Of a DNA stretch of 64,000 nt, positions 8,045 through 40,317 are shown in pieces. The notes beneath the pieces were generated by a model that ran no database searches, was not told where the DNA came from, and worked only from the letters and a program-made list of their open reading frames with translations. The DNA is from Shinella sp. H4-D48. GTDB taxonomy: Bacteria > Pseudomonadota > Alphaproteobacteria > Rhizobiales > Rhizobiaceae. Position numbers and translations under genes: made by a program. The stretch lies in contig NZ_CP093337.1 in NCBI RefSeq assembly GCF_022637395.1, positions 1,162,001 to 1,226,000 of the forward strand, read 5' to 3'. How positions within the stretch are numbered: the first letter of the stretch is position 1; each line of letters begins with the position of its first letter.

Positions 8045-9205
8045 CTACGCTCCCAGTGGCCGCAGCAGGTCGCGGCTGATGATGTGGCGCTGGATTTCCG
8101 ATGTGCCGTCCCAGATGCGCTCCACGCGGGCATCGCGCCAGAATCGGGCGAGCGGCAGGTCGTCCATCAGGCCCATGCCGCCGAAGATCTGGATCGCCTC
8201 GTCGGTGACGCGGGCGAGCATTTCCGTGGCATAGACCTTGGCCGAGGCGATTTCGCGGTTCGACGGCAGGCCCTGATCGAGTCGCCAGGCGGCCGAGAGC
8301 GTCAGCAGGTCGGCGGCATCGATTTCGGTGATCATGTCGGCCAGCTTGAAGGACACACCCTGGTTCGCACCGATCGGCTTGCCGAACTGTTTGCGCTCGG
8401 CGGCGTAGTTGAGCGCGTAGTCGAAGGCGCGGCGGGCGCGGCCGACGGATGTCGCGGCGACCGTCAGGCGCGTCGCATAGAGCCAGTCGTTGGCGATGTC
8501 GAAGCCCTTGTGCACCTCACCGAGGATCTGGGAGGAGGGCAGGCGGCATTCGTCGAAATTCAGGATGCAGTTCTTGTAGCCACGGTGCGAAACCGAATTG
8601 TAGCCCTCGCGGATTTCGAATCCGGGCGTGCCGCGATCGACGAGGAAGCAGGTGATGAGCTTCTTCTTGCCGCGCGGCGTGTCCTCTTCGCCCGTCGCGA
8701 TGAAGACGATGACGAAATCGGCGATATTGGCGTGGCTGATGAAGTGCTTGGTGCCGTTGACGACCCAGTCGTCGCCGTCCTTGCGGGCAAAGCATTTCAT
8801 GCCGCGCACGTCGGAGCCGGCATCGGGCTCGGTCATGGCGAGCGCGTCGAACTTCTCGCCGCTGACAGCCGGCAAAAGGTATTTCTCACGCTGCTCGCCT
8901 TCGCAGGCCATCAGGATGCCCGAGGGACGGCCGAAGAAAACGGTGAGCGCCATGGAGCCGCGGCCAAGCTCGCGCTCGACCAGCGTGAAGGACGTATGAT
9001 CGAGACCCGCGCCGCCGACCTCTTCGGGGAAGTTGCAGCCGAAGAAGCCGATGTCCTTGCACTTGCGCGCGATCTCCTGGCCGAGCTCCGGCGGCACATG
9101 ACCGGTACGCTCGACCTCGTTTTCATGCGGATAGATTTCCGTTTCGACAAACAGGCGAACCGTGTCCACGATCATCTGCTGTTCGTCGGTAAGTGCGAAG
9201 TTCAT
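8045..9205 (-). CDS. Acyl-CoA dehydrogenase (predicted gamma-butyrobetainyl-CoA dehydrogenase)
   Basis: This 386-residue FAD enzyme oxidises an acyl-CoA at the alpha-beta bond and passes electrons to an electron-transfer flavoprotein. Family signatures are MTEPDAGSDVRGM near residue 130 and the C-terminal RIWDGTSEIQRH near residue 365. The usual catalytic glutamate of the C-terminal motif (Y/W-E-G-T) is an aspartate here, a conservative change. In context it would turn gamma-butyrobetainyl-CoA into crotonobetainyl-CoA, the substrate of the CaiD-like hydratase. The leader carries a 17-base sequence, including the ribosome-binding site, that is also found before the beta-keto acid cleavage gene. 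A 120-base palindromic repeat separates it from the carnitine dehydrogenase gene upstream. Confidence 0.85.
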   Translation of the reverse strand: MNFALTDEQQMIVDTVRLFVETEIYPHENEVERTGHVPPELGQEIARKCKDIGFFGCNFPEEVGGAGLDHTSFTLVERELGRGSMALTVFFGRPSGILMACEGEQREKYLLPAVSGEKFDALAMTEPDAGSDVRGMKCFARKDGDDWVVNGTKHFISHANIADFVIVFIATGEEDTPRGKKKLITCFLVDRGTPGFEIREGYNSVSHRGYKNCILNFDECRLPSSQILGEVHKGFDIANDWLYATRLTVAATSVGRARRAFDYALNYAAERKQFGKPIGANQGVSFKLADMITEIDAADLLTLSAAWRLDQGLPSNREIASAKVYATEMLARVTDEAIQIFGGMGLMDDLPLARFWRDARVERIWDGTSEIQRHIISRDLLRPLGA

Positions 9206-9211
9206 TGCAGT

Positions 9212-9228
9212 GTTCTCCCAGTATTCTC
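9212..9228 (-). promoter_or_regulatory. 17-base leader motif with ribosome-binding site, copy 1
   Basis: The minus strand reads GAGAATACTGGGAGAAC directly upstream of the acyl-CoA dehydrogenase start. An identical 17-mer lies upstream of the beta-keto acid cleavage gene at 12005-12021. It contains the Shine-Dalgarno GGGAG; the bases before it have no obvious function. Confidence 0.6.
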
Positions 9229-9250
9229 TTTACTGGAGGTGCGTTTGGTC

Positions 9251-9371
9251 ACCCCCCTCTGGCCTGCCGGCCATCTCCCCCACAAGGGGGGAGATTGAAT
9301 CGTGGCACCGCTTTGCCTCCAGCCGATCTCCCCCCCTTGTGGGGGAGATGCCCGGCAGGGCAGAGGGGGGT
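9251..9371. repeat. Rhizobial intergenic palindromic element (two inverted arms)
   Basis: Two nearly identical arms of about 45 bases (CCCCCCTCTG...GCC ATCTCCCCCACAAGGGGGGAGAT) are arranged head to head around a spacer of about 30 bases. Each arm also has internal palindromes. Elements of this form (CCCTCTG...CTGCCGG...ATCTCCCCC) are common between genes in Rhizobiales. It fills the 179-base gap between the carnitine dehydrogenase and acyl-CoA dehydrogenase genes and would form a large hairpin in the transcript. Confidence 0.85.
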
Positions 9372-9384
9372 AAGGGCTTGCGCC

Positions 9385-10878
9385 CTACGCGCGCTTCTGC
9401 CCGACGCTCCGGCCGGCACCTTCCGGCACCGGGAGCGTCGCGTGGGCTTCGGCGATCGGCTTGATCTTCGCGAGCACTTCCGCCGGTGCCTCGACGCTCT
9501 TGCCGGCCTTCGAGTCGACATGGACCATCATCTGCTCGGCGGTGGCGATGACGTCGCCCGTCGCCGCGTCATGGATGCGGGTGAAGAAGTGCAGGCGCTT
9601 GGCGTCGGACGACAGAAGCTGGAGCGTCGTGTAGAGCGCCTGGCCGAGCTTGCCCTCGCCGAGATGGCGGATGTGGGTTTCCACCGTGTAGTAGCTGTGG
9701 CCGGCCTCGACGTAATCGAAATCGACACCGATAAGGCGCAGCAGCGCATCCGAGGTGTCGCCGAACAGCTGAAGATAGCGGTGTTCGGTCATGTGGCCGT
9801 TGTAATCGACCCAGGCGGCGTTGACCTTGGTATCGAGCAGGCGCAGCGGTTCGGCAGCAGAGACCTCGACCTTCGCCTTGCCGGCCTTGGCCCACAGGTG
9901 CGCCTCGAAATCGGCGAGCAGCTTGCCGGAGCCCCAACCCTTGCCGTCATCGCCGGCCTTCAGCGCGTGCATGATGCCGACGAGGTTCTGGTCGCGGATG
10001 CGCTCCAGCTCGCGGATGCCGCGTGCGCCGGACTGGGCGTCCGACTGGTCGGCGATCTTCGCGACCAGCGCATCGTTGAGGTCGACGACATCGGTGAGCT
10101 TCGTCCACGGCCAGGACAGGCAGGGGCCGAACTGCGCGAGGAAGTGGCGCATGCCCGCTTCGCCGCCGGCGATGCGGTAGGTCTCGAACATGCCCATCTG
10201 CGCCCAGCGCATGCCGAACGAATAGCGGATCACGTCGTCGAGCGTCTCGGTATCGCAGATATCGTCCTTGATGAGCCAGAGGCCCTCGCGCCAGACGGCT
10301 TCCAGAAGACGGTCGCCGACAAAGGCCTCGATCTCCTTGTTGATGATCACGCCCTTCATGCCGATGGGCGCCAGCTTGGCCTTGGCGTCTTCGAGAACCG
10401 CGCGCGACGTCTTCTGGCCACCGACGAGTTCGGCAAGCGGCAGGAGATAGACGGGGTTGTAGGGATGCGCGACGAACAGGCGTTCGGGATGCTTCATGTC
10501 GCGCTGCAGGTCGGTCGGCATGAGGCCCGAGGTGGAGGAGCCGATCAGCGCCTTGGGGTCGGCGGCGGCATCGATCTGGTTCAGCACGCCGCGCTTCAGT
10601 TCGAGGCGCTCGGGCACGCTTTCCTGAATCCAGTCAGCGCCTTCGACGGCTTCCTCAATGCTCTTGGCGAAGGTGACCTTTCCCTTCGGCGGCAGCGGCG
10701 CCATGGTGAGCATGCCATAGGCACGCTCGGCATTGGCCATGACTTCGCCGATGATGCGCTCGGCTTCCGGGTGCGGATCGAAAATCTTCACATCGATGCC
10801 GGCCAGCGCGAAACGCGCGACCCAGGCCCCGCCGATGACGCCGCCGCCGATGCAGGCTGCCTTGTGGATGGTGCTCAT
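9385..10878 (-). CDS. lcdH: L-carnitine dehydrogenase fused to a hotdog thioesterase
   Basis: This 497-residue protein fuses two enzymes. Residues about 1-320 are a 3-hydroxyacyl-CoA dehydrogenase-type NAD-binding domain, with the Rossmann motif GGGVIGGAW at 11-19 and the family stretch AHPYNPVYLLPLAELV. This part oxidises L-carnitine to 3-dehydrocarnitine. Residues about 350-480 form a 4HBT-type hotdog domain with the motif WVDYNGHMTEHRYLQLF, a betainyl-CoA thioesterase in characterised rhizobial carnitine dehydrogenases. The thioesterase would release glycine betaine from the betainyl-CoA made by the neighbouring cleavage enzyme. The total length matches the fused enzymes of Rhizobium and Sinorhizobium. 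An AAGGGAA ribosome-binding site precedes the ATG. The fusion of this activity with its partner strongly supports the carnitine assignment for the whole array. Confidence 0.93.
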   Translation of the reverse strand: MSTIHKAACIGGGVIGGAWVARFALAGIDVKIFDPHPEAERIIGEVMANAERAYGMLTMAPLPPKGKVTFAKSIEEAVEGADWIQESVPERLELKRGVLNQIDAAADPKALIGSSTSGLMPTDLQRDMKHPERLFVAHPYNPVYLLPLAELVGGQKTSRAVLEDAKAKLAPIGMKGVIINKEIEAFVGDRLLEAVWREGLWLIKDDICDTETLDDVIRYSFGMRWAQMGMFETYRIAGGEAGMRHFLAQFGPCLSWPWTKLTDVVDLNDALVAKIADQSDAQSGARGIRELERIRDQNLVGIMHALKAGDDGKGWGSGKLLADFEAHLWAKAGKAKVEVSAAEPLRLLDTKVNAAWVDYNGHMTEHRYLQLFGDTSDALLRLIGVDFDYVEAGHSYYTVETHIRHLGEGKLGQALYTTLQLLSSDAKRLHFFTRIHDAATGDVIATAEQMMVHVDSKAGKSVEAPAEVLAKIKPIAEAHATLPVPEGAGRSVGQKRA

Positions 10879-10948
10879 GCTGATGCGTTCCCTTGTACTT
10901 TGTGCTCGTTTGCCTGCGCCCGCGTGCTTTTACACATGGAGCGGCCAT

Positions 10949-11068
10949 CCCCCTCATCCGCCCTTCGGGCACCTTCTCCCCGTGGGGGAGAAGGGAAGGA
11001 TGCACCGCCTTGCCAGATTCTCCTTCTCCCCCAATGGGGAGAGGTGCTCGAAGGGCGGATGAGGGGGC
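10949..11068. repeat. RIME-type rhizobial intergenic palindrome
   Basis: Inverted arms begin CCCCCTCATCCGCCCTTCG and end CGAAGGGCGGATGAGGGGG, each with an inner CTTCTCCCC...GGGGAGAAG hairpin. Elements of this design are known in rhizobia as RIME-like intergenic elements. It fills the gap between the cleavage-enzyme and carnitine dehydrogenase genes. Confidence 0.85.
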
Positions 11069-11085
11069 AGGCGCTGCCGTTCCGG

Positions 11086-12000
11086 TCATCCGCGCGGCGC
11101 GCGCTTCGTCAGTTTCAGCTTCTCGCGCACTTCGGCCGGGCCGATGACGCGGGCGCCCATGCTTTCGATGATGTTGACGGCCTTATCGACGAGCTGCGCA
11201 TTGGTCGCGAGCTGGCCCTTGCCGACATAGAGATTGTCCTCAAGGCCGACGCGGACATTGCCGCCGGCAAGCACGGCCGCAGCCGGATAGGCCATGGCGT
11301 TACGGCCGATGGAGAAGGCCGAAAAGGTCCAGTTCGACGGCACGTTGTTGACCATCGCCATGAAGGTGTTGAGATCGTCAGGCGCGCCCCACGGAATGCC
11401 CATGCACAGCTGGATGAGGACCGGATCCTCGATGACGCCTTCTTCGACGAGCTGCTTGGCGAACCAGAGATGGCCGGTATCGAAGGCTTCGATTTCGGGG
11501 CGCACGCCGAGATCGGTCATCATCTTGCCCATGGCGCGCAGCATCGACGGAGTGTTGGTCATCACATAGTCGCCGAGCGAGAAGTTCATGGTGCCGCAAT
11601 CGAGCGTGCAGATTTCCGGCAGGCATTCGACAACGTGGGACACGCGCTCGGTGGCGCCCACCATGTCGGTGCCGACAGGGTTCAGCGGCAGCGGCTGTTC
11701 GGTGCCGCCGAAGATCATGTCGCCGCCCATGCCGGCGGTGAGGTTGAGCACCACGTCGACTTCGGCGTCACGGATGCGCTCGGTGACTTCGCGATAGAGA
11801 TCGTTGCGGCGGCTGGGCGCGCCGGTCTCGGGGTCGCGCACATGGCAGTGCACGACGGCGGCACCCGCCTTGGCGGCGTCGATCGCGGATTCGGCGATCT
11901 GCTTGGGTGAGCGCGGCACATGCGGCGACTTGCCTGCGGTATCGCCGGAGCCGGTAACAGCGCAGGTAATGAAGACGTCGCGGTTCATCGAAAGAGGCAT
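11086..12000 (-). CDS. Beta-keto acid cleavage enzyme (BKACE), predicted 3-dehydrocarnitine cleavage enzyme
   Basis: This 304-residue TIM-barrel enzyme of the BKACE family (formerly DUF849) cleaves a beta-keto acid with acetyl-CoA to give acetoacetate and a new acyl-CoA. Seen here are the zinc-binding HCHVRDPETG near residue 50, GGTEQPLPL, and the EAFDTGHLWFA region near residue 170. Next to a carnitine dehydrogenase the expected reaction is 3-dehydrocarnitine plus acetyl-CoA to betainyl-CoA plus acetoacetate. I chose the ATG at 12000 because GGGAG stands 7 bases before it; a longer in-frame start at 12063 has no such site and would run into the divergent promoter. It is the first gene of the minus-strand array. 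Confidence 0.9.
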   Translation of the reverse strand: MPLSMNRDVFITCAVTGSGDTAGKSPHVPRSPKQIAESAIDAAKAGAAVVHCHVRDPETGAPSRRNDLYREVTERIRDAEVDVVLNLTAGMGGDMIFGGTEQPLPLNPVGTDMVGATERVSHVVECLPEICTLDCGTMNFSLGDYVMTNTPSMLRAMGKMMTDLGVRPEIEAFDTGHLWFAKQLVEEGVIEDPVLIQLCMGIPWGAPDDLNTFMAMVNNVPSNWTFSAFSIGRNAMAYPAAAVLAGGNVRVGLEDNLYVGKGQLATNAQLVDKAVNIIESMGARVIGPAEVREKLKLTKRAPRG

Positions 12001-12004
12001 TTTC

Positions 12005-12021
12005 GTTCTCCCAGTATTCTC
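12005..12021 (-). promoter_or_regulatory. 17-base leader motif with ribosome-binding site, copy 2
   Basis: This is the second identical copy of GAGAATACTGGGAGAAC, which supplies the GGGAG ribosome-binding site for the cleavage-enzyme gene at 12000. The other copy is at 9212-9228. Confidence 0.6.
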
Positions 12022-12114
12022 GTTAAGGCCATTACGAGCCAAGAGACGGCGCAATGCTTTCACTTTTCAGATCTATCCTTGACAATTTGAGAGGTGCATT
12101 TGCATGCTTGCGTC
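12022..12114. promoter_or_regulatory. Divergent promoter region, carnitine array / GlxA-type regulator
   Basis: About 90 bases separate the divergent starts of the cleavage-enzyme gene and the regulator gene. A TTGACA hexamer at 12079-12084 could be a -35 box for the regulator, but no good -10 box stands 17 bases further on. Operators for the regulator would be expected here; I saw no convincing long palindrome. Confidence 0.45.
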
Positions 12115-13089
12115 ATGCTCGACCTCTCCTCCGATACGCTCGACATCGATCTTCTTATCCTGCCCGAGACGAACCTCATCCTCGTCGCCTCGGTTATCGA
12201 ACCCCTGCGCGCGGCCAACCGAATTTCCGGTCAGACGCTCTACCGCTGGCGGATGTTCTCGCCGGATGGGCAACCCATCGAGACGCGCAGCCGCATTCCC
12301 GTTCCCGTCGACGGCGTTTTCCGGCCGGAAAAGGAGACGGCGCCGCTCTTCGTGCTGTCGAGCTATCAATGGCAGATGAGTGCGACGCCTCTGTTACGGC
12401 GCCAGCTTTCGCAGACCGCGCGCTACCGGACGATGATGGCGGGTATCGAATCGGGAAGCTGGCTGCTGGCGGAGGCGAGCCTCTTGGACGGCTACTCCGT
12501 GACCGTTCACTGGGAGGACATGGAGGAATTCGCTTCGTGCTATCCGCAGATTGCCGTGATGCGGGAGCGCTATGTCATCGACGGAAAGCGTGTCACCTCC
12601 GGCGGATCGCTGCCGACGCTCGACCTGATGCTGGAAATCATTCGCCGAAGGCAGGGCTATTCGCTTGCGCTGGAGGTATCGCGGCTGTTCATCTACGAGC
12701 ATGAGCGCACCGGCGGTCTCCTGCAGGTGCCGGCGCTCGGCAACATGCGCGTTGCCGACCAGCGCGTGAGCCAGGCCGTGCGGCTGATGGAAGAGACGGT
12801 CGATGCGCCGCTGACGCTGGCGCGGCTCGCCCGGCGTGTGGGCATCAGCGCGCGGCATCTGCAGGACCTGTTTCAGGAATCGATGGGTGTGGTGCCGCAC
12901 CAGCACTATCTGGCGCTGCGCCTCAACGCGGCCCGGCGCAAGGTCATCGAGACCAAGGCGGAGTTTGCCGACATCGCCGCGCTCACCGGCTTCAACTCGT
13001 CATCGGCCTTCTCGCGTAGCTACCGCGCGCACTATCACGAAAGCCCGACGGAGACGCGGCGGCGGCTGCGCGCAGGCGCCAAGGTTTAA
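12115..13089 (+). CDS. GlxA/AraC-family transcriptional regulator, CdhR-like
   Basis: This protein of 324 residues has an N-terminal DJ-1/PfpI-like (class I glutamine amidotransferase-like) domain (about 1-185) and a C-terminal AraC-type double helix-turn-helix (about 210-315), with APLTLARLARRVGISARHLQDLF and ADIAALTGFNSSSAFSRSYRAHYHESP. Regulators of this type (CdhR, GbdR) activate carnitine and glycine betaine catabolism in pseudomonads. It is divergent from the carnitine array and is probably its activator, sensing carnitine or a derivative. The start is uncertain: an in-frame GTG at 12094 would add 7 residues but has a ribosome-binding site too close to it; I prefer the ATG at 12115. Confidence 0.85.
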   Translation: MLDLSSDTLDIDLLILPETNLILVASVIEPLRAANRISGQTLYRWRMFSPDGQPIETRSRIPVPVDGVFRPEKETAPLFVLSSYQWQMSATPLLRRQLSQTARYRTMMAGIESGSWLLAEASLLDGYSVTVHWEDMEEFASCYPQIAVMRERYVIDGKRVTSGGSLPTLDLMLEIIRRRQGYSLALEVSRLFIYEHERTGGLLQVPALGNMRVADQRVSQAVRLMEETVDAPLTLARLARRVGISARHLQDLFQESMGVVPHQHYLALRLNAARRKVIETKAEFADIAALTGFNSSSAFSRSYRAHYHESPTETRRRLRAGAKV

Positions 13090-14255
13090 GGCGCACGCCG
13101 CGACAGGATGGGGATCACCGTTTCCGCCGCCTGGCGGGACAGCGTGTCACGCGGCCAGACGAGGCTCAGCGATTGGCGGTAGGCCGGGCCGAGCGGCAGC
13201 AGCGCCGGCGGCGGGCTGATATTGGCCAGCGAGTTCTCCGGCAGGATGGCAAGGTGGCCGTGTTTCAGCACGAGGTTGATGATGACGGGGATGGAATCCA
13301 CCTCCACCAGCGTCAGGCGTGCCCGCTCGGCCGGCGTGAGCGTGGCCTCCAGAAAACGGTCCGTCATCTGGCGCAGGCCGCTGCGCGGGCTCGGTACGGC
13401 AATCGGATAGCGGCGCAGGAGAGCCGCGAGGTCCTGCCGGTCGTCTTCCTTCAGGTCGCGGGGGGCGGCGAGGGCGAGTTGCGACTGGTCGATCAGGCAG
13501 CCATCGAACTCCACGGGATAGCGGTCGGTATCGAGCAGGATCAGGTCGAAACGGCGGTTCTTGAGACCGGAAACCAGTTCATCGGCCGTTGTCGAGGACA
13601 GGAAGAGCGGCTGGCGCGGGCGGGCGGCGCGCCACTCGACCGCCAGCCGCGCCAGCATGCCGGCGATCTCGCTTTCATGGCCGAAGGGGATGATGGCGCC
13701 GAGCCGCCAGGTTGCGGCGCTGCGCCGGAAACGCTCCGTGGAGGCAGCGGCGAGCGTTTCCCAGGCGGTGGTGATGTGCTCGGCAAGGGCAAGCGCTTCA
13801 AGGCCCGCCGGCGTGCAGCTAATGCCCTTGGCCGAACGGTCGAACAGCGTGCAGCCGATGGCCTTCTCAAGATGCGCGAGCTGACGGGTCAGCTGGGGCT
13901 GACCGAGGCCGTGGCTTCTGGCAGCGGCATTGATGCTGCCGGCCTTGGCAGCGGCGGCGAAGCGAGAGAGCGATGCGAGCGGGATGGCGCCCCCGGCCGA
14001 TGTGCCTTGCCCGAGCGACAAAAGCGTCGCCGCGGTGCGCGCGATCTCAGCAAAATGTGGCAGGCGGGTTTCCCCCTCCAGCGTGGGCACCAGCGCCTGC
14101 CCGTCGCGCCGAACAAGCGGCACCGAAAGGGCGGCTTCGACCCGTCGCAGTGCCGCACTTGCGCTGGAGGCCGGCCGGCCGGCGCGGGCGGCGGCCCGGC
14201 GAATGCCGCGCTGTTCGAGTATGTCGTGCACGAGGCTGAGGGTGGCCAGATCCAC
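13086..14255 (-). CDS. LysR-family regulator with two tandem N-terminal HTH domains
   Basis: At 389 residues this is about 90 longer than a normal LysR-type regulator. The extra length is a second winged HTH. Residues 3-60 resemble a degenerate LysR HTH (AAARAGRPASSASAALRRVEAAL followed by a VPLVRRDG wing). Residues 91-155 form the canonical one (FAAAAKAGSINAAARSHGLGQPQLTRQLAHLEKAIGCTLFDR). A LysR substrate-binding domain follows from about 175 to the end. The GTG at 14255 is the only start that keeps both HTHs. Its gene is divergent from the putative ergothioneine operon, and it converges with the GlxA-type regulator gene with a 4-base overlap. The likely role is substrate-responsive control of that operon. 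Both the inducer and the use of the first HTH are unknown. Confidence 0.85.
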   Translation of the reverse strand: MDLATLSLVHDILEQRGIRRAAARAGRPASSASAALRRVEAALSVPLVRRDGQALVPTLEGETRLPHFAEIARTAATLLSLGQGTSAGGAIPLASLSRFAAAAKAGSINAAARSHGLGQPQLTRQLAHLEKAIGCTLFDRSAKGISCTPAGLEALALAEHITTAWETLAAASTERFRRSAATWRLGAIIPFGHESEIAGMLARLAVEWRAARPRQPLFLSSTTADELVSGLKNRRFDLILLDTDRYPVEFDGCLIDQSQLALAAPRDLKEDDRQDLAALLRRYPIAVPSPRSGLRQMTDRFLEATLTPAERARLTLVEVDSIPVIINLVLKHGHLAILPENSLANISPPPALLPLGPAYRQSLSLVWPRDTLSRQAAETVIPILSRRAP

Positions 14256-14427
14256 GGGCGGCGCTTTCGTTTAGCGGATGATGTTCGGCTTATAGCATAG
14301 GGCGTGCGGATTTTGGGATATCTGTTTGTGCTGCGTTGCGCTTAACATCCATCCCGTACTTTTCTGCAATTGCCGGATAAGCCCGCGCGGCTTTTCCGAT
14401 GCTGCACTCGATACAGGCTTTGGGGAC
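14256..14427. promoter_or_regulatory. Divergent promoter region, tandem-HTH LysR gene / ergothionase-like operon
   Basis: This 172-base region separates the LysR gene (minus) from the first gene of the plus-strand operon. It should hold both promoters and the LysR binding site (T-N11-A type). A TATAGCATAG stretch at 14291-14300 could serve as a -10 region. I could not define an operator with confidence. Confidence 0.5.
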
Positions 14428-15966
14428 ATGCTCGCTTCCGCCGAAACGCTCTATCTCACTGGCCAGCCACTCGATTTCACCGCGCTGGAGGCGATCGGCC
14501 GGGCGGGCCGGCATGCGGTGGCCTGCGAGAAGGGCATGGGGCGGATCGTGACGGCGCGGCATGTCGTTACCGATCGACTCGCCACCGGCCTGCCGATCTA
14601 CGGCGCCAATACCGGCGTCGGCTCGATGAGGGACAAACTGTGGACGGCCGACGATCTCGTCGAGTTCAACAATAACCTCGTCAAGGCGCATCATTTCGGC
14701 ACGGGCGAGCCCTTTACGCTGCCCATCGTGCGCAAGGCCATGGCGATCCGGGTGAACACGGCGCTCGGCGGTTATTCCGGGTGCAGCCCTGAGCTGATCG
14801 ACGCCTTCCTCGCGCTGCTCGAAAAGGATGTCGTGCCCGTGGTGCGCCGGCACGGGTCTATGGGCTGCGCCGATATTGGCCTGATGGGCCAGATCGCTGC
14901 CGTGCTGATGGGCGAGGGCGAGGCGTGGTATCGCGGCGAGCGCGTGCCGGCCGCTGAGGCGCTGGAGCGCGCCGGGTTGAAACCCCATCACATGCAGCCG
15001 CGCGATGCGCTGGCGGCGCTGAGCGTCAACGCCATCTCGCATGCCGCCGCAGCCGACGTGGTGCGCGAGGCAGCCAAGGCGATCCGCAACCTCATGGTAA
15101 CAGGCGTTCTTTCGTCGCTGGCGCTCGGGGCATCTGCCGATCCTTGGCGGGTCGCCGCGCGCCTTTCGGCCCATGGCGAGGCGATGGCCGGGCGCTGGTT
15201 CGAGGCGCAGGCCGCCTCGGGCCACTGGCCCAAGCCATCGGCGATCCACGATCCGCTCAGCCTGCGCATGACCGCGCAGGTCTTCGGCGCCTGCCTCGAT
15301 ACGCTGATGAACGCGGCAGAGCGCATCGTCGAGGCGACCGCGCAGTCGGATGACAATCCCGTCGTCATCGACGGCGTGATCATGGCCTCCGGCGGCTCGC
15401 TGCCGCTCTCGACTACCCTCTATGTCGAGGCCGCGCAGACGGGGTTCGCGCATCTTGCCCGAAACGTCCTGAACCGCTGCGTGCTGCTGGCCAACGGCGT
15501 GCGCCGCAACCTGCCGGTCAATCTCGTTGCGCCCGGCGAGGCGGCGACCGGCTTCGGGCCGCTTTTGAAGCTCGCAGTCGAGCTCTATATGCGCATCCAG
15601 TCGCTGGCGGTGCCGATCTCGGCGCAATCCATTGTCGTGGCGGGCGGGCTGGAGGAGGAGGCGACCTTCCTGCCGCTGATCGTCGAGCGCATGGAAAGCC
15701 AGGTGCGCGACCTTCGCCAGCTTGCCGCGCTCGAAGCCATGCTGTCGGCGCAGGCCGTTGATCTCTCGGGCGACAATGTCGAGGGCGTGGCCTCCATCGC
15801 CTATCAGCGCACGCGTGCCATCAGCCCGTTCTACCGCAAGGACCGGCCGCTTTCCGCCGAAATCGAGGCGCTCGACCGTGATCTCGCCTGCCCGGATGCG
15901 CTTGCCGCCTTCCTCGATGCGGCGCCTATGGCCGAGTTCGACACCTTCTTCGCCCTCAAAGCCTGA
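14428..15966 (+). CDS. Aromatic amino acid lyase-family protein lacking the MIO triad; predicted ergothionase
   Basis: This 512-residue protein aligns with histidine ammonia-lyase through PIYGANTGVGSMRDK (about 56-70, with the catalytic-loop Tyr58), GGYSGCSPE, HGSMG and QSDDNPVVIDG. The Ala-Ser-Gly that cyclises to the MIO electrophile in true ammonia-lyases is Cys-Ala-Asp here (residues 147-149, bases 14866-14874). MIO therefore cannot form in the usual way, which argues against amino-acid ammonia-lyase activity. Ergothionases, which remove trimethylamine from ergothioneine to give thiourocanate, belong to this family and lack MIO because trimethylammonium is already a good leaving group. 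The four genes downstream supply the rest of that pathway. I chose the ATG at 14428; a TTG 102 bases upstream would add a non-homologous leader. The exact substrate remains inferred. Confidence 0.82.
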   Translation: MLASAETLYLTGQPLDFTALEAIGRAGRHAVACEKGMGRIVTARHVVTDRLATGLPIYGANTGVGSMRDKLWTADDLVEFNNNLVKAHHFGTGEPFTLPIVRKAMAIRVNTALGGYSGCSPELIDAFLALLEKDVVPVVRRHGSMGCADIGLMGQIAAVLMGEGEAWYRGERVPAAEALERAGLKPHHMQPRDALAALSVNAISHAAAADVVREAAKAIRNLMVTGVLSSLALGASADPWRVAARLSAHGEAMAGRWFEAQAASGHWPKPSAIHDPLSLRMTAQVFGACLDTLMNAAERIVEATAQSDDNPVVIDGVIMASGGSLPLSTTLYVEAAQTGFAHLARNVLNRCVLLANGVRRNLPVNLVAPGEAATGFGPLLKLAVELYMRIQSLAVPISAQSIVVAGGLEEEATFLPLIVERMESQVRDLRQLAALEAMLSAQAVDLSGDNVEGVASIAYQRTRAISPFYRKDRPLSAEIEALDRDLACPDALAAFLDAAPMAEFDTFFALKA

Positions 15967-15978
15967 CGGAGACACGAC

Positions 15979-17355
15979 ATGGCCGATTTCGATCTCGTTG
16001 TGAAAGGTACCGTCGTCCTGGCGGATCGTATTGTCGAAGGCGGGCATGTCGCGGTTCGCGACGGCAAGGTGGTGCATGTGGGACAGGGCGCGATGCCCGC
16101 AGCAAAGGAGCGGCACGACCTTTCGGGCGCGCTGATCCTGCCCGGCGCCATCGATGCGCAGGTCCATTCGCTCTCGCAGAAGAACCAGGAGGATTTCATC
16201 TGGTCGACGCGCTCGGCGGCGGCGGGCGGCGTCACCACCATCGTCGACATGCCCTATGACGAGGGCAACCTCGTGTGCTCGGCGGAAGCGGTGAAGATCA
16301 AGGTCGATCATGCATCGACGCAGGCGCGCGTCGATTTCGCGCTCTACGGCACCGTTGATCCCGAAGAAGGGCCGGCACGCATCGGCGAAATGGTCGAGGC
16401 GGGGGTTGCGGCCTTCAAGTTCTCGACCTTCGGCACGGACCCGAAGCGCTTTCCGCGCATTTCCGCCGCGCTTCTCGAAGACTGCTTCCGCGTCATCGCC
16501 CCGACGGGGCTGACCGCCGGCGTGCACAACGAGGACGACGAGGCGGTGCGGGCGGCGATCGCGAAGGTGAAGGCGGCGGGCATCACCGACTACCGCGCTC
16601 ATGGCCTGTCGCGTCCGCCGCTGACGGAACTGCTCGCCTCCAACCAGATCTACGAGACGGGGGCGCAGACCGGGTGCCCGGCGCATGTCGTGCATTGCTC
16701 GCTCGGCCGCGGTTATGAGATCGCTAGCGCCTACAGGGCGCAGGGTTTTCGCGCGACGATCGAGTGCTGCATCCACTATCTGACGCTTGATGAAGAGAAC
16801 GACGTGGCCCGGCTCGGCGGTAAGGCGAAGATCAACCCGCCGATCCGCCCGCGCGCCGAGGTGGAAAAGCTCTGGAGGCATATCGCGGAAGGCAATGTCA
16901 CCCTGGTGTCCACGGACCATGTCAGCTGGTCGGAGGACCGCAAGACGAACCCGGACATGCTGGCCAATGCATCCGGCGTGCCGGGGCTGGAGGTCATGGT
17001 GCCGCTCTTCGTCAAGGGCGCACTGGAGCGCGGCATTCCGCTGACGCGCGCGGCCGAACTGATGGCGCTGAACCCGGCCCGGCACTTCCGCCTCGATCAT
17101 GTGAAGGGCGCGCTGGAAGCCGGCAAGGATGCCGACATCACGGTGCTGACGCCGGAGCCCTACATCTATGACGCGGCCGCGAGCGGCAACAATGTCGTGG
17201 GATGGTCGCCCTATAACGGCATCCGCCTGCCATGGCGGGTCTCGGGCACCTATCTGCGTGGCAGGCTCGCCTTCGATGGCACGAACGTGCTTGCCGAACC
17301 GGGTACCGGCGCCTTCGTGCGGCCGCTGCCGACGCTCGTTTCCAGGGGAGCCTGA
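15979..17355 (+). CDS. Dihydropyrimidinase/allantoinase-family amidohydrolase; predicted hydantoin-5-propionate hydrolase
   Basis: This 458-residue cyclic amidase opens a hydantoin-type ring. Most metal-centre residues are visible: Lys147 (AFKFST, the carboxylated lysine position), His183 (GVHNEDD), His239 (HVVHCS) and Asp313 (STDHVSW). The usual HxH after the PG-x-ID stretch is Gln61-Val-His63, so one ligand position is replaced. In this operon the expected reaction is hydantoin-5-propionate to N-carbamoyl-L-glutamate, made just before the next gene's step. It starts 12 bases after the ergothionase-like stop with a GGAG site. Allantoinase is a weaker alternative, because no other purine-degradation genes are nearby. 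Confidence 0.8.
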   Translation: MADFDLVVKGTVVLADRIVEGGHVAVRDGKVVHVGQGAMPAAKERHDLSGALILPGAIDAQVHSLSQKNQEDFIWSTRSAAAGGVTTIVDMPYDEGNLVCSAEAVKIKVDHASTQARVDFALYGTVDPEEGPARIGEMVEAGVAAFKFSTFGTDPKRFPRISAALLEDCFRVIAPTGLTAGVHNEDDEAVRAAIAKVKAAGITDYRAHGLSRPPLTELLASNQIYETGAQTGCPAHVVHCSLGRGYEIASAYRAQGFRATIECCIHYLTLDEENDVARLGGKAKINPPIRPRAEVEKLWRHIAEGNVTLVSTDHVSWSEDRKTNPDMLANASGVPGLEVMVPLFVKGALERGIPLTRAAELMALNPARHFRLDHVKGALEAGKDADITVLTPEPYIYDAAASGNNVVGWSPYNGIRLPWRVSGTYLRGRLAFDGTNVLAEPGTGAFVRPLPTLVSRGA

Positions 17356-17357
17356 GG

Positions 17358-18626
17358 ATGGCCCGTTCAACCAATCTGCCGGTCGATCCAGCGCGCATCG
17401 CTGATGTGATCGACGGGCTTGCCCGGCTCACCGATCCGGGACGGCCCTACACACGGCGTGCCTTTACCGCTCTGTTCCCGGCAGGGCGGGATTTTCTTGA
17501 CGATGCGTTTCGGGCCGCAGGGCTCGAGACGCGCATCGACGCGGCAGGCAATCTCATCGGCCGCCGGCCGGGCCGCGTGCCCGGTCGCGGCACGATCATG
17601 CTCGGCTCGCATTCCGACACGGTGCCTGATGGCGGACGCTATGACGGCATCGCGGGCGTCGCGGTGGCGCTGGAAGTGGCGCGTGCGCTCACCGATCAGG
17701 ACATCGAACTCGATCATGATCTGGAGGTCGTGGATTTTCTTGCCGAGGAAGTCTCTGTTTTCGGTGTCTCCTGCATCGGCAGTCGCGGCATGGCCGGTGT
17801 GCTGCCTGAAGATTGGCTGACGCGCGACAGCGGGGGCCTGACGCTGGCGCAGGGCATCCGCGATGCCGGCGGCGATCCTTCACGCATTGTCGCCGAAGCG
17901 CGCAGAGACATTGCGGCGTTCCTTGAACTGCATATCGAGCAGGGGCCGGTGCTGGAGACGGAAAAGCTCGACATCGGCGTGGTGACGGCGATTGCGGGAA
18001 TCACGCGCATCGAGATCATCGTGGAGGGGCGCGCCGACCATGCGGGCACGACGCCGATGGGCGCACGTGCCGATGCACTGGCGGCGGCGGCAAGGCTGGT
18101 GACGGGCATCGAGGCGCTGGCGAAATCGTTTTCCGACGGCCCCGGCCATTTCACCGCGACGGTGGGCGAATTCTCCATCGAACCGAATGCCGCCAATGTC
18201 GTGCCGTCGCGGGCACGCCTGCTGATCGATGCACGTGCGGAAGAGCGCACCACCATGGATGTGTTCGCCGCCTCCGTGGACCAGCTCACGGAACAGATCG
18301 CGCGGGAAACTGGCACCGTTATAGCGCCGCCGCGCCGCATCTCTGACAACATGCCCACCCCCGGCGATCCGTTGCTGCTCGACATTCTGGATGCGGCCTG
18401 CGAGGCGGTCGGTGCCGGGCATCGCCGCATGGCCTCCGGTGCCGGGCACGATACGGCCTTCATGGCGAAGGTGACGCGGGCTGCGATGATCTTCGTTCCG
18501 TGCCTTGGCGGGCGCAGCCACGCGCCGGAGGAATTCGCCGAGATCGACGACATCGCGCTCGGCGCGGCGGTGCTTTTTAACGCGGTGATTCAGCTGGATG
18601 AGAAACTGATTCAGGAGAACGTCTAA
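17358..18626 (+). CDS. M20-family N-carbamoyl-amino-acid amidohydrolase; predicted N-carbamoyl-glutamate hydrolase
   Basis: This 422-residue metal-dependent hydrolase of the HyuC/AllC/beta-ureidopropionase group removes a carbamoyl group, giving CO2, ammonia and an amino acid. The binuclear metal site is visible as GSHSDTVPDGGRYDG (His85, Asp87 and Asp96) and the FLAEEVSVFG stretch with the conserved acidic pair near 130. The RADHAGTTPMGAR segment near residue 230 opens the dimerisation domain. I chose the ATG at 17358, 2 bases after the upstream stop and with CTGAGG before it; an in-frame start 126 bases earlier would lie within the amidohydrolase gene. In the proposed pathway it makes glutamate from N-carbamoyl-L-glutamate. 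Confidence 0.85.
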   Translation: MARSTNLPVDPARIADVIDGLARLTDPGRPYTRRAFTALFPAGRDFLDDAFRAAGLETRIDAAGNLIGRRPGRVPGRGTIMLGSHSDTVPDGGRYDGIAGVAVALEVARALTDQDIELDHDLEVVDFLAEEVSVFGVSCIGSRGMAGVLPEDWLTRDSGGLTLAQGIRDAGGDPSRIVAEARRDIAAFLELHIEQGPVLETEKLDIGVVTAIAGITRIEIIVEGRADHAGTTPMGARADALAAAARLVTGIEALAKSFSDGPGHFTATVGEFSIEPNAANVVPSRARLLIDARAEERTTMDVFAASVDQLTEQIARETGTVIAPPRRISDNMPTPGDPLLLDILDAACEAVGAGHRRMASGAGHDTAFMAKVTRAAMIFVPCLGGRSHAPEEFAEIDDIALGAAVLFNAVIQLDEKLIQENV

Positions 18627-19723
18627 TGGGTCGGATTTTAAAGGAAAAAGACGTCGAGGCGGCCGTTCGGGGCGGCTCGGTCTACGCCGCCGGCGGTGGC
18701 GGCTGGGCCGACCACGGGCGTATGCTGGGTCGTGCGGCGGTTTCCATCGGCAAGCCGGAACTGGTGTCCATCGACGAACTCTCCGACGACGACTGGGTGG
18801 CGACGGCGGCCGCCATCGGCGCGCCGGCCTCGACCACGCCGTGGGAGATGCGCGGCGTCGATTACGTCAAGGCCGTCGAGTTGCTTCAGGAAGCGCTCGG
18901 CGAGAAGGTCGCGGCGTTGATGGTGGGGCAGAACGGCAAGTCCTCGACGCTGAACGGCTGGCTGCCGTCCGCGATCCTCGGTACAAAGGTGCTGGATGCG
19001 GTGGGCGACATGCGCGCGCACCCGACCGGCGACATGGGCTCGATCGGCATGGCCGGCTCGCCCGAGCAGATGATCCAAACCGCCGTTGGCGGCAATCGTG
19101 ATGAAAACCGGTACATCGAACTCGTCGTGCGCGGCGCGACGGCGAAGGTCTCGCCGATCCTGCGCACCGCCTCTGACATGTCCGGCGGCTTCATCGCCTC
19201 GTGCCGCAACCCGCTGCGCGCCTCCTATGTGCGCAGGAATGCGGCGCTCGGCGGCATCTCCCTGGCGCTGAAACTGGGCGAAGCGATCCTTGCGGCAGAA
19301 GGCAGGGGCGGCTCGGCGATCATCGATGCCATCGTGAAGACGACGGGCGGCGGCATCCTGACCGAGGGCACGATCACCGACAAATCCGTGGTCTACACGA
19401 AGGAAGCCTTCGACATCGGCACGGTGACCCTCGGCAAGGGCGACAAGGCTTCGGTGCTTCATGTGATGAACGAGTACATGGCGGTTGAAACCGCCGACGG
19501 GACACGGCTTGCGACCTTCCCCGATGTCATCACCACGCTGTCGCCAGAGGGCGAGCCGCTGAGCGTCGGACAGCTGGAGGTCGGCATGTCGGTCTTCGTG
19601 CTGCATGTGCCCAAGACGATCATTCCGCTTGCCTCGAGCGTGCTGGATCCGACGGTCTATCCCTCGGTGGAGAAGGCGATGGGGATCGAGCTGGCGCGGT
19701 ATGCGCTGGAGACGGTGGTTTAG
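18626..19723 (+). CDS. DUF917 protein (S-methyl-thiohydantoin desulfurase family); predicted thiohydantoin desulfurase
   Basis: This 365-residue protein belongs to the DUF917 family, whose Pfam name now refers to S-methyl-thiohydantoin desulfurase. The N-terminal glycine-rich YAAGGGGWADHGRML (about 20-34) and the central HPTGDMGSIGMAGSPEQ are typical. Its start overlaps the preceding stop (TAATG), so it is translationally coupled. In the ergothioneine route the thiohydantoin formed from thiourocanate loses sulfur to give hydantoin-5-propionate, and a DUF917 protein beside a urocanase and a hydantoinase fits that step. It could otherwise act on another cyclic thioamide or hydantoin. The family assignment is firm; the substrate is inferred from context. 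Confidence 0.8.
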   Translation: MGRILKEKDVEAAVRGGSVYAAGGGGWADHGRMLGRAAVSIGKPELVSIDELSDDDWVATAAAIGAPASTTPWEMRGVDYVKAVELLQEALGEKVAALMVGQNGKSSTLNGWLPSAILGTKVLDAVGDMRAHPTGDMGSIGMAGSPEQMIQTAVGGNRDENRYIELVVRGATAKVSPILRTASDMSGGFIASCRNPLRASYVRRNAALGGISLALKLGEAILAAEGRGGSAIIDAIVKTTGGGILTEGTITDKSVVYTKEAFDIGTVTLGKGDKASVLHVMNEYMAVETADGTRLATFPDVITTLSPEGEPLSVGQLEVGMSVFVLHVPKTIIPLASSVLDPTVYPSVEKAMGIELARYALETVV

Positions 19724-19740
19724 GAGAAGACAGCCGCGTT

Positions 19741-19770
19741 ACCCCCTCTGCCCTGCCGGGCAGAGGGGGT
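19741..19770. repeat. Perfect 30-base palindrome (short form of the rhizobial repeat)
   Basis: The arms ACCCCCTCTGCCC and GGGCAGAGGGGGT flank a TGCC loop. It is the outer part of the element at 9251-9371 without the CTCCCCC arms. It lies inside the operon between the DUF917 and urocanase-like genes and may shape transcript stability. Confidence 0.8.
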
Positions 19771-19802
19771 GAGCCTCCCCACGAATATATGAGGAGACAC
19801 CC

Positions 19803-21464
19803 ATGCCCAAACCGAACGCCCGCCACCCGAACTATCCGATCCCGTCCGGCCCCGTGCTGCGCGCCAAGGGCTGGCGGCAGGAGGCGCTGTTGCGGCTGCT
19901 CGAAAACGTGCTGTCGGTCGGCGAGGACCCAGACAATCTCATCGTCTATGCCGCGCTCGGCAAGGCCGCGCGCAACTGGGCGGCGCATCGGGCGATCGTC
20001 AAGGCGCTGACCGAGATGGACGAGGACCAGACGCTGGTCATCCAGTCCGGCAAGCCGGTGGGGCTGCTGAAGACCCACTCCAAGGCGCCGCTCGTCATCA
20101 TGGCGAACTGCAACATCGTCGGGCAGTGGGCGAAGGCGGAGGTGTTCTATGAACTCCAGCGCAAGGGGCTGATCTGCTGGGGCGGCCTGACTGCCGGTGC
20201 GTGGCAATATATCGGCAGCCAGGGTGTTATCCAGGGCACCTATGAAATCTTCATGCGCATCGCCGAAAAGCGCTTCGGCGGCAGTCTTGCCGGCCGCTTC
20301 ATCCTGACCGCGGGGCTTGGCGGGATGGGCGGCGCGCAGCCGCTCGCCGGGCGCATGGCCGGGGCGGCCATTCTCTGCGTCGATATCGACCCCGCGCGGG
20401 CGGCGGCACGCAAGGCGGTCGGCTACCTCGAGCATGTCGCTCCGGATCTCGACACGGCGCTTGGCATGATCGATGCCGCGGTGAAGGAAAAGCGCGCGAC
20501 CTCCATCGGCCTCGTCGGCAATGCGGCGGAGACATACCCCGAAATCGCGCGGCGCGGCATCGTGCCCGATATCGTCACAGACCAGACCTCGGCGCATGAC
20601 CTCGTCTACGGCTATGTGCCGAAGGGCATGAGCCTCGATCAGGTGAAGGGGCTGCGTGACGACGGGCAGGGGCAGCTGATGGCCGCGAGCCGCGCTTCCA
20701 TCGTCGAGCATGTCTCGGCCATGCTGGAGTTCCAGAAAAGGGGCTCGGAAGTCTTCGATAACGGCAACCTCATCCGCACACAGGCGCGGGAAGGCGGCGT
20801 TGCCAATGCCTTCGACATCCCGATCTTCACGGAAGCCTATCTGCGCCCGCTCTTTGCGCGCGCCATCGGTCCGTTCCGCTGGATGGCGCTGTCGGGCGAA
20901 GAGAGCGATATCGCGCGCATCGACGATCTCGTGCTGGAGATGTTTCCGGACAATTCCATCGTCACCAACTGGATCCGCCTTGCGCGTGAGAACATTCCCT
21001 TCGAAGGCCTGCCGGCGCGCATTGCCTGGCTGGGGCACGGCGAGCGCACCGCGTTGGCGCTGGCGGTCAACACGCTGGTCGCCGCAGGTGAAGTGAAGGG
21101 GCCGATCGCTTTCTCGCGCGACCATCTCGACGCCGGCGCGATGGCGCACCCCAACATCATGACGGAGCGGATGAAGGATGGCTCCGACGCCATCGCAGAC
21201 TGGCCGCTGCTCGATGCGATGCTGCTCTGCTCGTCCATGGCCGATCTCGTCGTCGTGCATTCCGGCGGTGGCGGCTATGCCGGCTACATGACAAGCTGCG
21301 GCGTGACGCTGGTGGCCGACGGAACAGACGGCGGGGCCGAACGCCTCGAACATGCCCTGACCAACGACACCTCGCTTGGCGTGATCCGCTATGCGGATGC
21401 GGGCTATGACGAGTCGCTCGACGAGATCAAGAGGAAGGACATCGGCCACATCTCGCTGGGATGA
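19803..21464 (+). CDS. Urocanase-family protein; predicted thiourocanate hydratase
   Basis: This 553-residue protein is a homologue of urocanate hydratase (HutU), an NAD-dependent enzyme that adds water to the imidazole-acrylate system. Family features are GWRQEALLRLLENVL at the start, the NAD-binding GLGGMGGAQPLAGRM near residue 175, the DQTSAHDLVYGYVP loop near 260, and HSGGGGYAGYMTSCGVTLVADG near 480, where true urocanases read HHGGG...HSG. No hutI, hutG or functional hutH is nearby. Instead it closes an operon with a MIO-less lyase and a thiohydantoin desulfurase family member, which points to thiourocanate as substrate. An AGGAG site precedes the ATG. Ordinary urocanase activity cannot be excluded from sequence. 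Confidence 0.82.
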   Translation: MPKPNARHPNYPIPSGPVLRAKGWRQEALLRLLENVLSVGEDPDNLIVYAALGKAARNWAAHRAIVKALTEMDEDQTLVIQSGKPVGLLKTHSKAPLVIMANCNIVGQWAKAEVFYELQRKGLICWGGLTAGAWQYIGSQGVIQGTYEIFMRIAEKRFGGSLAGRFILTAGLGGMGGAQPLAGRMAGAAILCVDIDPARAAARKAVGYLEHVAPDLDTALGMIDAAVKEKRATSIGLVGNAAETYPEIARRGIVPDIVTDQTSAHDLVYGYVPKGMSLDQVKGLRDDGQGQLMAASRASIVEHVSAMLEFQKRGSEVFDNGNLIRTQAREGGVANAFDIPIFTEAYLRPLFARAIGPFRWMALSGEESDIARIDDLVLEMFPDNSIVTNWIRLARENIPFEGLPARIAWLGHGERTALALAVNTLVAAGEVKGPIAFSRDHLDAGAMAHPNIMTERMKDGSDAIADWPLLDAMLLCSSMADLVVVHSGGGGYAGYMTSCGVTLVADGTDGGAERLEHALTNDTSLGVIRYADAGYDESLDEIKRKDIGHISLG

Positions 21465-23598: not shown

Positions 23599-24753
23599 TC
23601 AGGCTGCTTTGAACCGAGCCATCACCTCGGCGCGTGCCGGATCGGTCAGTGTCACCGCGGCACCGAATTCGAGCGGGGTGAGCGCGGCCTCGTCGGGATA
23701 GACGATCCTGTTGCCGGTGATTTCGGCTGGCAGCAGGGCGACGACGCGGCTGTCGGTGGCCGGCGTGCCGTTGGCGATGTGCTCCCGCACTGCGTTCTGC
23801 GGGTCCATCAGGAAGTTCAAGAGCGCGTAGCCGGCTGGCTTGTTGGGCGCATTCTTCGGAATGGCGTAGAAATCCGACCAGATCTCGCCACCGTCCGAAC
23901 CGAGGGTGAAGGCGATCTCCGGCACGTCGCGACTGAGCTGTGCGCCGTCACCGGTCCAGCACATGGTCATCCAGGCGTCAGTGCCGCGCATGGCCGGCTG
24001 ATAGTCGCTGGTGACGGCATAGAGATGCGGCTTGACCTGGAGCAACAGTTCCTCGGCCTTTGCAAGCTCCTCGGGTTTCACCGAGTTGAAGGAAAAGCCG
24101 AGCGCGACGAGGGCATTGCCGATGGCGGTGAGCTGGTAGTCGTGCACGATCGCGCGGCCATCTGCCTCGTCCATGGCGGCTGCGAAGAATTCTTTCCAGC
24201 TCGTGACCGTCACCTTGTCGGTATTGTAGGCAATGCCGGTCGTGCCCCAGTTCTTCGGCAGCGCATACACCTTGCCTTCGGCGGTGCCCTGTCTGGTGAA
24301 ACGGGCATTCTGGGTGCGTGCGTCGAAATTCGGCAGGCGGGACAGGTCCAGCGGATCGATCAGGCCGAGATGGGCATAGGTGGAGATCGTGTAGTTTGTC
24401 GGCACGAACAGATCCCATCGGGCGCTGTCGGTCTGAAGCGCTTCCAGCATCTCCTCGTTCGAGCCGAAGATGCTGACCTCCACCGCGACGCCGGTTGCGG
24501 CGGTAAAGGCCTCGAAGGTGGCGGGGTCGTGATAGTTCGGCCATGTCGCAATCGCCATGCTGGCGCCGAGATCGCCGCTGGCATGGGCGACCGAAGAAAA
24601 CCCCGGCTGGCGGGCGAGCACGGCGGCCGCAAGGCCGAGCCCGGTGATGCCTAGAAATTGGCGCCGCGAAATCGAGCCGCGCTTGAGGCGCATGAAGGCG
24701 TCCGTCAGCGCACCGGCATCCATGGGGGCATGTTCTCTGAACCATTTCGACAT
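23599..24753 (-). CDS. Orphan spermidine/putrescine-type substrate-binding protein, Tat-exported
   Basis: This 384-residue periplasmic protein resembles PotD-type binding proteins (solute-binding family 1/8). It has a twin-arginine signal (SISRRQFLGITGLGLAAAVLA at about 27-47). The mature part contains MAIATWPNYHDPATFEAFTAATG and NWGTTGIAYNTDKV, typical of polyamine binders. No permease or ATPase gene adjoins it, so it either feeds a transporter encoded elsewhere or acts as a sensor. It converges with the L,D-transpeptidase gene across 13 bases. Confidence 0.82.
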   Translation of the reverse strand: MSKWFREHAPMDAGALTDAFMRLKRGSISRRQFLGITGLGLAAAVLARQPGFSSVAHASGDLGASMAIATWPNYHDPATFEAFTAATGVAVEVSIFGSNEEMLEALQTDSARWDLFVPTNYTISTYAHLGLIDPLDLSRLPNFDARTQNARFTRQGTAEGKVYALPKNWGTTGIAYNTDKVTVTSWKEFFAAAMDEADGRAIVHDYQLTAIGNALVALGFSFNSVKPEELAKAEELLLQVKPHLYAVTSDYQPAMRGTDAWMTMCWTGDGAQLSRDVPEIAFTLGSDGGEIWSDFYAIPKNAPNKPAGYALLNFLMDPQNAVREHIANGTPATDSRVVALLPAEITGNRIVYPDEAALTPLEFGAAVTLTDPARAEVMARFKAA

Positions 24754-40064: not shown

Positions 40065-40317
40065 TGAAGGACATTGATGGAATACAGGAACGGCTGCGAC
40101 GATTTGTGAAGCCAGATCATATGGATAATCGCGTGGAGCGGTAATCAACAATTTACCATGGGCATCTAAGAGTGGCGCATCAGAAAGCCTCCACGGAAGG
40201 CCCTGTGCCTTCTGAAAAACCCATGATGGGTGCGGGCTCTTGCATGCCGTCAGGCCTGCGTCCCGATGGAACAGTGCTGCTTTTCACATTCTCCATTTTT
40301 GCCGGGGTATTTTCAGT

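Follow-up and report, generated by a model that had tools for sequence, protein, structure and literature searches.

The 64,000-nucleotide stretch of the Shinella sp. H4-D48 genome analysed here (the window; positions 1,162,001-1,226,000 of contig 1, in a genome of 4.77 Mb on 3 contigs) carries a predicted ergothioneine-degradation operon of five open reading frames (ORFs), all on the + strand, at 14428-21464. We conclude that the five genes very probably form a complete aerobic ergothioneine-utilisation operon that follows the already described pathway to glutamate. Ergothioneine is a dietary antioxidant that is made by fungi and some bacteria, and its five-step bacterial catabolism was reportedly worked out by Beliaeva, Leisinger and Seebeck in 2021. 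In this scheme, which is consistent with the NCBIfam names of the enzymes, a lyase lacking the 4-methylideneimidazole-5-one (MIO) group would take trimethylamine off ergothioneine to give thiourocanate. A urocanase homologue would hydrate thiourocanate to 3-(5-oxo-2-thioxoimidazolidin-4-yl)propionate, and a DUF917 desulfurase would exchange the sulfur for oxygen, yielding hydantoin-5-propionate and sulfide. ErtD would then open the ring to N-carbamoyl-L-glutamate, from which ErtE would strip the carbamoyl group to leave glutamate, CO2 and ammonia.

The sequence-only reading had described five same-direction genes with short gaps or overlaps. This arrangement was confirmed, with the families assigned by Pfam and NCBIfam. 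The operon starts with a MIO-less protein of the aromatic-amino-acid-lyase family, the predicted ergothionase or trimethylamine lyase (512 aa, 14428-15966; Pfam Lyase_aromatic, 282.6 bits). It is followed by the hydantoin-5-propionate amidohydrolase ErtD (458 aa, 15979-17355), the N-carbamyl-L-glutamate amidohydrolase ErtE, an M20 carbamoylase (422 aa, 17358-18626), an S-Me-THD-like thiohydantoin desulfurase (365 aa, 18626-19723) and the thiourocanate hydratase, the urocanase homologue (553 aa, 19803-21464). The intergenic distances are, in order, 12, 2, -1 (an overlap) and 79 bases. For the lyase the ATG at 14428 was taken as the start of a mechanical ORF that begins at 14326, and for ErtE the start was placed at 17358 in an ORF beginning at 17232. 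Pfam found in the operon an aromatic amino acid lyase, an amidohydrolase, an M20 peptidase, the N and C domains of S-Me-THD (formerly DUF917) and three urocanase domains. The closest named loci belong to Shinella species, with a urocanase homologue that is 94-95% identical.

The proteins for steps 2-5 all exceeded curated NCBIfam cut-offs for this pathway. The hydratase scored 1043.2 bits on the model NF058530 (cut-off 930), the desulfurase 602.7 bits on NF058529 (cut-off 440), ErtD 799.6 bits on NF058538 (cut-off 600) and ErtE 596.9 bits on NF058540 (cut-off 520). On the S-methyl versions of the models, the desulfurase (289.5 bits on NF058532, cut-off 450) and the hydratase (734.4 bits, cut-off 880) stayed below the cut-offs. 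ErtD was also below the cut-offs of the second-type ErtD model NF058539 (381 against 650) and of the allantoinase model TIGR03178 (278.1 against 357.85). ErtE reached a higher score on the broader Zn-dependent hydrolase model NF009531 (660.7 bits, cut-off 486), and the best PDB match of the hydratase was 7ned with 815 bits, the next one having 609. We regard the thiourocanate and S-methyl models as discriminating because the A. tumefaciens pAt cluster (L089) reversed the pattern, passing the S-methyl pair and failing the thiourocanate hydratase model (725.3 against 930), because the listed hydratase scores in the family survey described below dropped from 1002.5 to 717.2 bits with none between, and because the hydratase was over the cut-off in none of 14 control genomes. 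The pAt cluster shares DUF917, urocanase, ErtD and ErtE homologues with the window, and unlike the window it has annotated glutathione S-transferase and S/N-oxide reductase genes. Since it passes the S-methyl models, it was ruled out as a relative acting on the same substrate.

The characterised ergothionase of Treponema denticola (6s7j/6s7q; Maurer 2019) was the best PDB match of the window lyase in both sequence and fold. With phmmer, 6s7j gave 186.9 bits, followed by the histidine ammonia-lyase (HAL) of Thermoplasma (7tqr, 152.5 bits) and that of P. putida (125 bits). A profile of the lyase clade gave 250.4 bits with ergothionase, then 194.1 and 181.4. The AlphaFold model of the lyase had a mean predicted local distance difference test (pLDDT) score of 80.6 and a predicted template modelling (pTM) score of 0.86, and its top three Foldseek matches were 6s7j. 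HutH models reached only 218-226 bits with cut-offs of 524-539. The MIO-forming Ala-Ser-Gly triad, which the sequence-only reading had claimed to be missing, was indeed absent from the aligned site: residues 143-150 (14854-14877, + strand) read GSMGCADI, one residue shorter than GSVGASGDL in the HutH of the same genome. At this site 103 lyase-like rows were compared, some genes being represented twice. GSIGCADI, GSMGCADI or, once, GSIGTADI was found in 82 of them, all at >=52% identity, and GSVGASGDL in 11, including the strain's own HutH. Of the remaining 10, five have GSIGAGDL, GSIGEADI and GSIGAADL occur once each, and three do not match the pattern. The T. denticola ergothionase likewise has no MIO triad. 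In HAL numbering, the Tyr280 column has Leu in both the window lyase and the T. denticola ergothionase, within a common DPLS motif, and the equivalents of Tyr53, His83 and Arg283 are retained in both. The two enzymes differ in the Phe329 column, with Ser in the window and Phe in T. denticola (aligning on the SGG motifs would give Leu), and in GCADI as opposed to GEGDI at the MIO site.

In a tree of 28 rows the window lyase fell inside an alphaproteobacterial clade with a support of 100/100. One part of the clade comes from 21 of 69 loci (Shinella, Ensifer and some Rhizobium) and is 66-91% identical to the window lyase; the other comes from 48 loci (most Rhizobium, Devosia, Martelella and Brucella pituitosa) at 52-56%. 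A second tree of 25 rows, made from the first set minus five rows plus two, contained a 98/95 branch that splits the window clade and the T. denticola/Burkholderia-like lyases from HutH and the GAGD-type lyases. In neither tree did the lyase group with the MIO-containing HutH, an outcome that the sequence-only reading had named as a refutation. It is 25.0% identical to the HutH of its own genome. By sequence, the lyase looks like a far-diverged branch of the known ergothionase family. Its substrate is predicted to be ergothioneine, mainly from the genomic context.

This context was examined in 199 genomes of the family Rhizobiaceae, where the hydratase was counted over the curated cut-off and the lyase at E <= 1e-120. 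Thiourocanate hydratase was found in 26 genomes. The window-type lyase was found in 20, all of them among the 26 and none among the other 173 (Fisher p 1.6e-22, uncorrected for relatedness). The two genes share a contig and lie no more than 10 kb apart in 19 of the 20 genomes. Of the 20 lyase matches, one is partial and two are interrupted by a single stop. A survey of 385 genomes of the class (hydratase at E <= 1e-280, window-type lyase at E <= 1e-110, type-I-like lyase at E <= 1e-75) found the hydratase in five genomes and the window-type lyase in three, all of which were among the five; the hydratase genomes G296 and G472 had neither lyase type at these thresholds. One genome had a type-I-like lyase without the hydratase, and therefore this lyase is not a specific marker.

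In two family genomes of a single genus (G108 and G182), a different MIO-less lyase with GSVGEADI lies directly upstream of ErtD, in the same operon slot. It is 38% identical to the T. denticola enzyme, 41% to the lyase near the Burkholderia arboris cluster (L085) and 28% to the window lyase, and the best PDB match of the G108 protein is ergothionase with 299 bits. Among 80 loci gathered via thiourocanate hydratase, DUF917 and ErtE were present in 80 each, ErtD in 76, the lyase in 69 and a LysR homologue in 29. A neighbouring gene for beta-keto-acid cleavage was present in 20, all with the closer lyase type. The lyase was not found in 11 loci (L060, L068-L072, L074-L076, L080 and L084), two of which, L060 and L080, are either short or truncated at the end of a contig. 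The idea that these loci represent a separate pathway was rejected for the other nine, as whole-genome searches found a lyase elsewhere at 52-54% identity in all nine. It survives only for the genomes G168, G061, G164 and G080, whose clusters (L141, L144, L145 and L146) hold ErtD, ErtE, the desulfurase and the hydratase. In all four a solute-binding protein of the tripartite ATP-independent periplasmic (TRAP) type lies within about 2.3 kb, and L141 additionally has UbiD and flavoprotein genes. The hosts of such clusters might scavenge thiourocanate that other bacteria release. TRAP genes were also seen in the plasmid clusters of Paracoccus aminophilus and Thalassospira marina (L086, L091), with no lyase within the plasmid stretches examined; on pAMI4 a 29% identical MIO-less lyase (L092) lies some 13 kb from the cluster. 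Several rhizobial genomes contain MIO-less lyases with GSIGAGDL (L107-L111), 31-33% identical to the window lyase. These were rejected as an alternative first enzyme since no pathway gene set adjoined them in the three of five contexts examined (L122-L124), with one partial ErtD-like match (34%) near the lyase of L123.

Taken together, our results support the full ergothioneine pathway claimed from the sequence alone: the proposed comparison with characterised enzymes gave ergothionase as the best PDB match of the lyase and passed pathway models for the four others, with the S-methyl models below their cut-offs. Like the pathway of Beliaeva 2021, the window has all five activities represented; unlike it, the window has a step-1 lyase of a diverged clade, the comparison being one of activities. 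That study is among the references of PMC9732360.

A number of observations weigh against this interpretation. No NCBIfam model names the lyase, which is only 28.8% identical to the T. denticola ergothionase and 28.8% to the L085 lyase; the downstream proteins are closer to those of L085, with 66% for DUF917 and 70% for the hydratase. The 28-row tree joins the T. denticola ergothionase with the other MIO-less lyases and HutH and leaves the window clade apart, and long branches were flagged in both trees. In the fold search the P. putida HAL was almost equal (Foldseek E 8e-23 against 1e-23 for ergothionase), and therefore the fold alone is not decisive. The pLDDT is below 50 in the loops 58-66, 145-147, 271-273, 321-325 and 398-413 of the model, and those at 58-66, 145-147 and 398-413 align with HAL active-site motifs. 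The window-type lyase is missing from six of the 26 family genomes with the hydratase. In G168, G061, G164 and G080, which belong to three genera, a lyase search at E <= 1e-8 found one HutH-like match each (29-31% identity) as the sole lyase. At the level of the DNA, the only sigma-70-like promoter that a scan turned up is on the opposite strand (1.3 expected), which is not above chance. Terminator-like sites numbered 7 where 3.2 were expected, and five lie on the + strand within ErtE. The window contains no transporter clearly for ergothioneine.

Conceivably, the substrate of the operon is ergothioneine in an oxidised or other modified form, such as ergothioneine sulfonate, and its diverged lyase has become adapted to this betaine. 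The distance of the clade from the characterised ergothionase would fit this. PMC13405746, which cites Maurer 2019, Muramatsu 2013 and Yan 2022, refers to the last of these for an ergothioneine-sulfonate pathway in Agrobacterium radiobacter, and the Rhizobium rhizogenes loci L054 and L055 hold the lyase clade of the window. A member of this clade from A. radiobacter may already have been assayed. We consider a sulfonate substrate unlikely, as the desulfurase and the hydratase score over the thiohydantoin and thiourocanate cut-offs and downstream genes of the same models adjoin the T. denticola-like lyase in G108 and, by similarity, in G182.

An ordinary or duplicated cluster for histidine or hydantoin degradation would account for the hutU score of the urocanase homologue, which at 687.2 bits is over the cut-off of 375 (three homologues in related clusters are over it as well), and for a lyase fold near HAL. 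This reading is very improbable given the missing MIO triad, the low HutH scores and the dedicated pathway models that were passed. Moreover, a HutH and a HutU are encoded near 2.145 Mb on the same contig, about 1 Mb from the operon, and these were the only other matches in a whole-genome search. They belong to the same superfamilies as the enzymes of steps 1 and 2, but this HutH has an ASGD MIO site and, on the thiourocanate model, this HutU stays under the cut-off of 930 with 689.2 bits. hutI- and hutG-like ORFs, named by eye, lie beside them. No hut gene was found among the 30 window proteins scanned (about 50 ORFs were picked), which agrees with the sequence-only reading. The S-methyl-ergothioneine pathway uses the same enzyme families, and the S-methyl models gave scores of 289.5 and 734.4 bits; with these under the cut-offs, the non-methyl models passed and the opposite pattern in the pAt homologues, it is hardly credible here.

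Under the preferred reading, unmodified ergothioneine as the substrate, the alphaproteobacterial lyases could represent a second, long-diverged and uncharacterised lineage of ergothionases in the operon slot of the T. denticola/Burkholderia-like enzyme. The enzyme of step 1 would have been replaced on one or more occasions and those of steps 2-5 retained, and degraders would be missed in counts that rely on similarity to the Burkholderia enzyme. We put this forward tentatively, as a possibility of nearly even weight. According to PMC13405746, a survey with a single Burkholderia ergothionase found the enzyme restricted to few genera, with divergent homologues unaccounted for. The window-type clade, 29% identical to the B. 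arboris lyase (L085, possibly a different enzyme from the survey query), occurs in 20 of the 199 sampled family genomes. A census of the soil and root bacteria that consume ergothioneine, giving off trimethylamine and sulfide, hinges on recognising the first enzyme. The pathway itself is already in the literature, and four of the five enzymes carry NCBIfam names. What deserves further study is the diverged lyase of step 1. New here are this clade, the T. denticola/Burkholderia-like lyase in the same slot in two relatives of one genus, and the four relatives in which only HutH-like lyases were found, with a TRAP binding protein beside the cluster. Among the titles listed in a literature search, none concerned this operon in rhizobia.

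Ergothioneine synthesis was looked for via EgtB alone, and no match was found in the genome. For the use of trimethylamine, gamma-glutamylmethylamide synthetase was the one enzyme sought: its model TIGR03105 had 10 matches in the genome, all under the cut-off of 469.6 bits, with 233.7 as the highest score. Together with the hut genes elsewhere, these results suggest that the strain uses external ergothioneine. In the Martelella locus L083 a glycine-betaine ABC transporter of the OsmF type lies between the lyase and ErtD, a placement that fits a betaine substrate. Eight loci have two of the gene clusters of this transporter region in common; the Devosia locus L077 is arranged as L083, and so is L073, but ErtD was not found there.

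The five genes would presumably be co-expressed, and a divergent LysR-family protein upstream (13086-14255, - strand; two Pfam HTH_1 stretches in tandem and LysR_substrate) is a possible regulator. By eye, an N-terminal extension like that of this protein was seen in LysR proteins at several related loci. Genes for carnitine catabolism adjoin the operon at 8045-13089, carnitine being a betaine too. They encode a carnitine 3-dehydrogenase with a thioesterase domain (898.4 bits on the NCBIfam model, cut-off 592), a beta-keto acid cleavage enzyme, a GbdR-like AraC regulator that scored below the cut-off and an acyl-CoA dehydrogenase named by eye. On the other side, at 23599-24753, a PotD-like solute-binding protein is encoded, apparently without permeases and an ATPase of its own. 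Related loci have genes for a short-chain dehydrogenase/reductase, permeases and an ATPase in this region, and the PotD-like gene of Shinella curvata (L009) is preceded by about 2.6 kb and followed by 2.4 kb that are unmatched at this position in the window. Further downstream, at 40240-41841, the window encodes a methyl-accepting chemotaxis protein that carries a protoglobin domain at its N-terminus and may be a sensor of the aerotaxis type.

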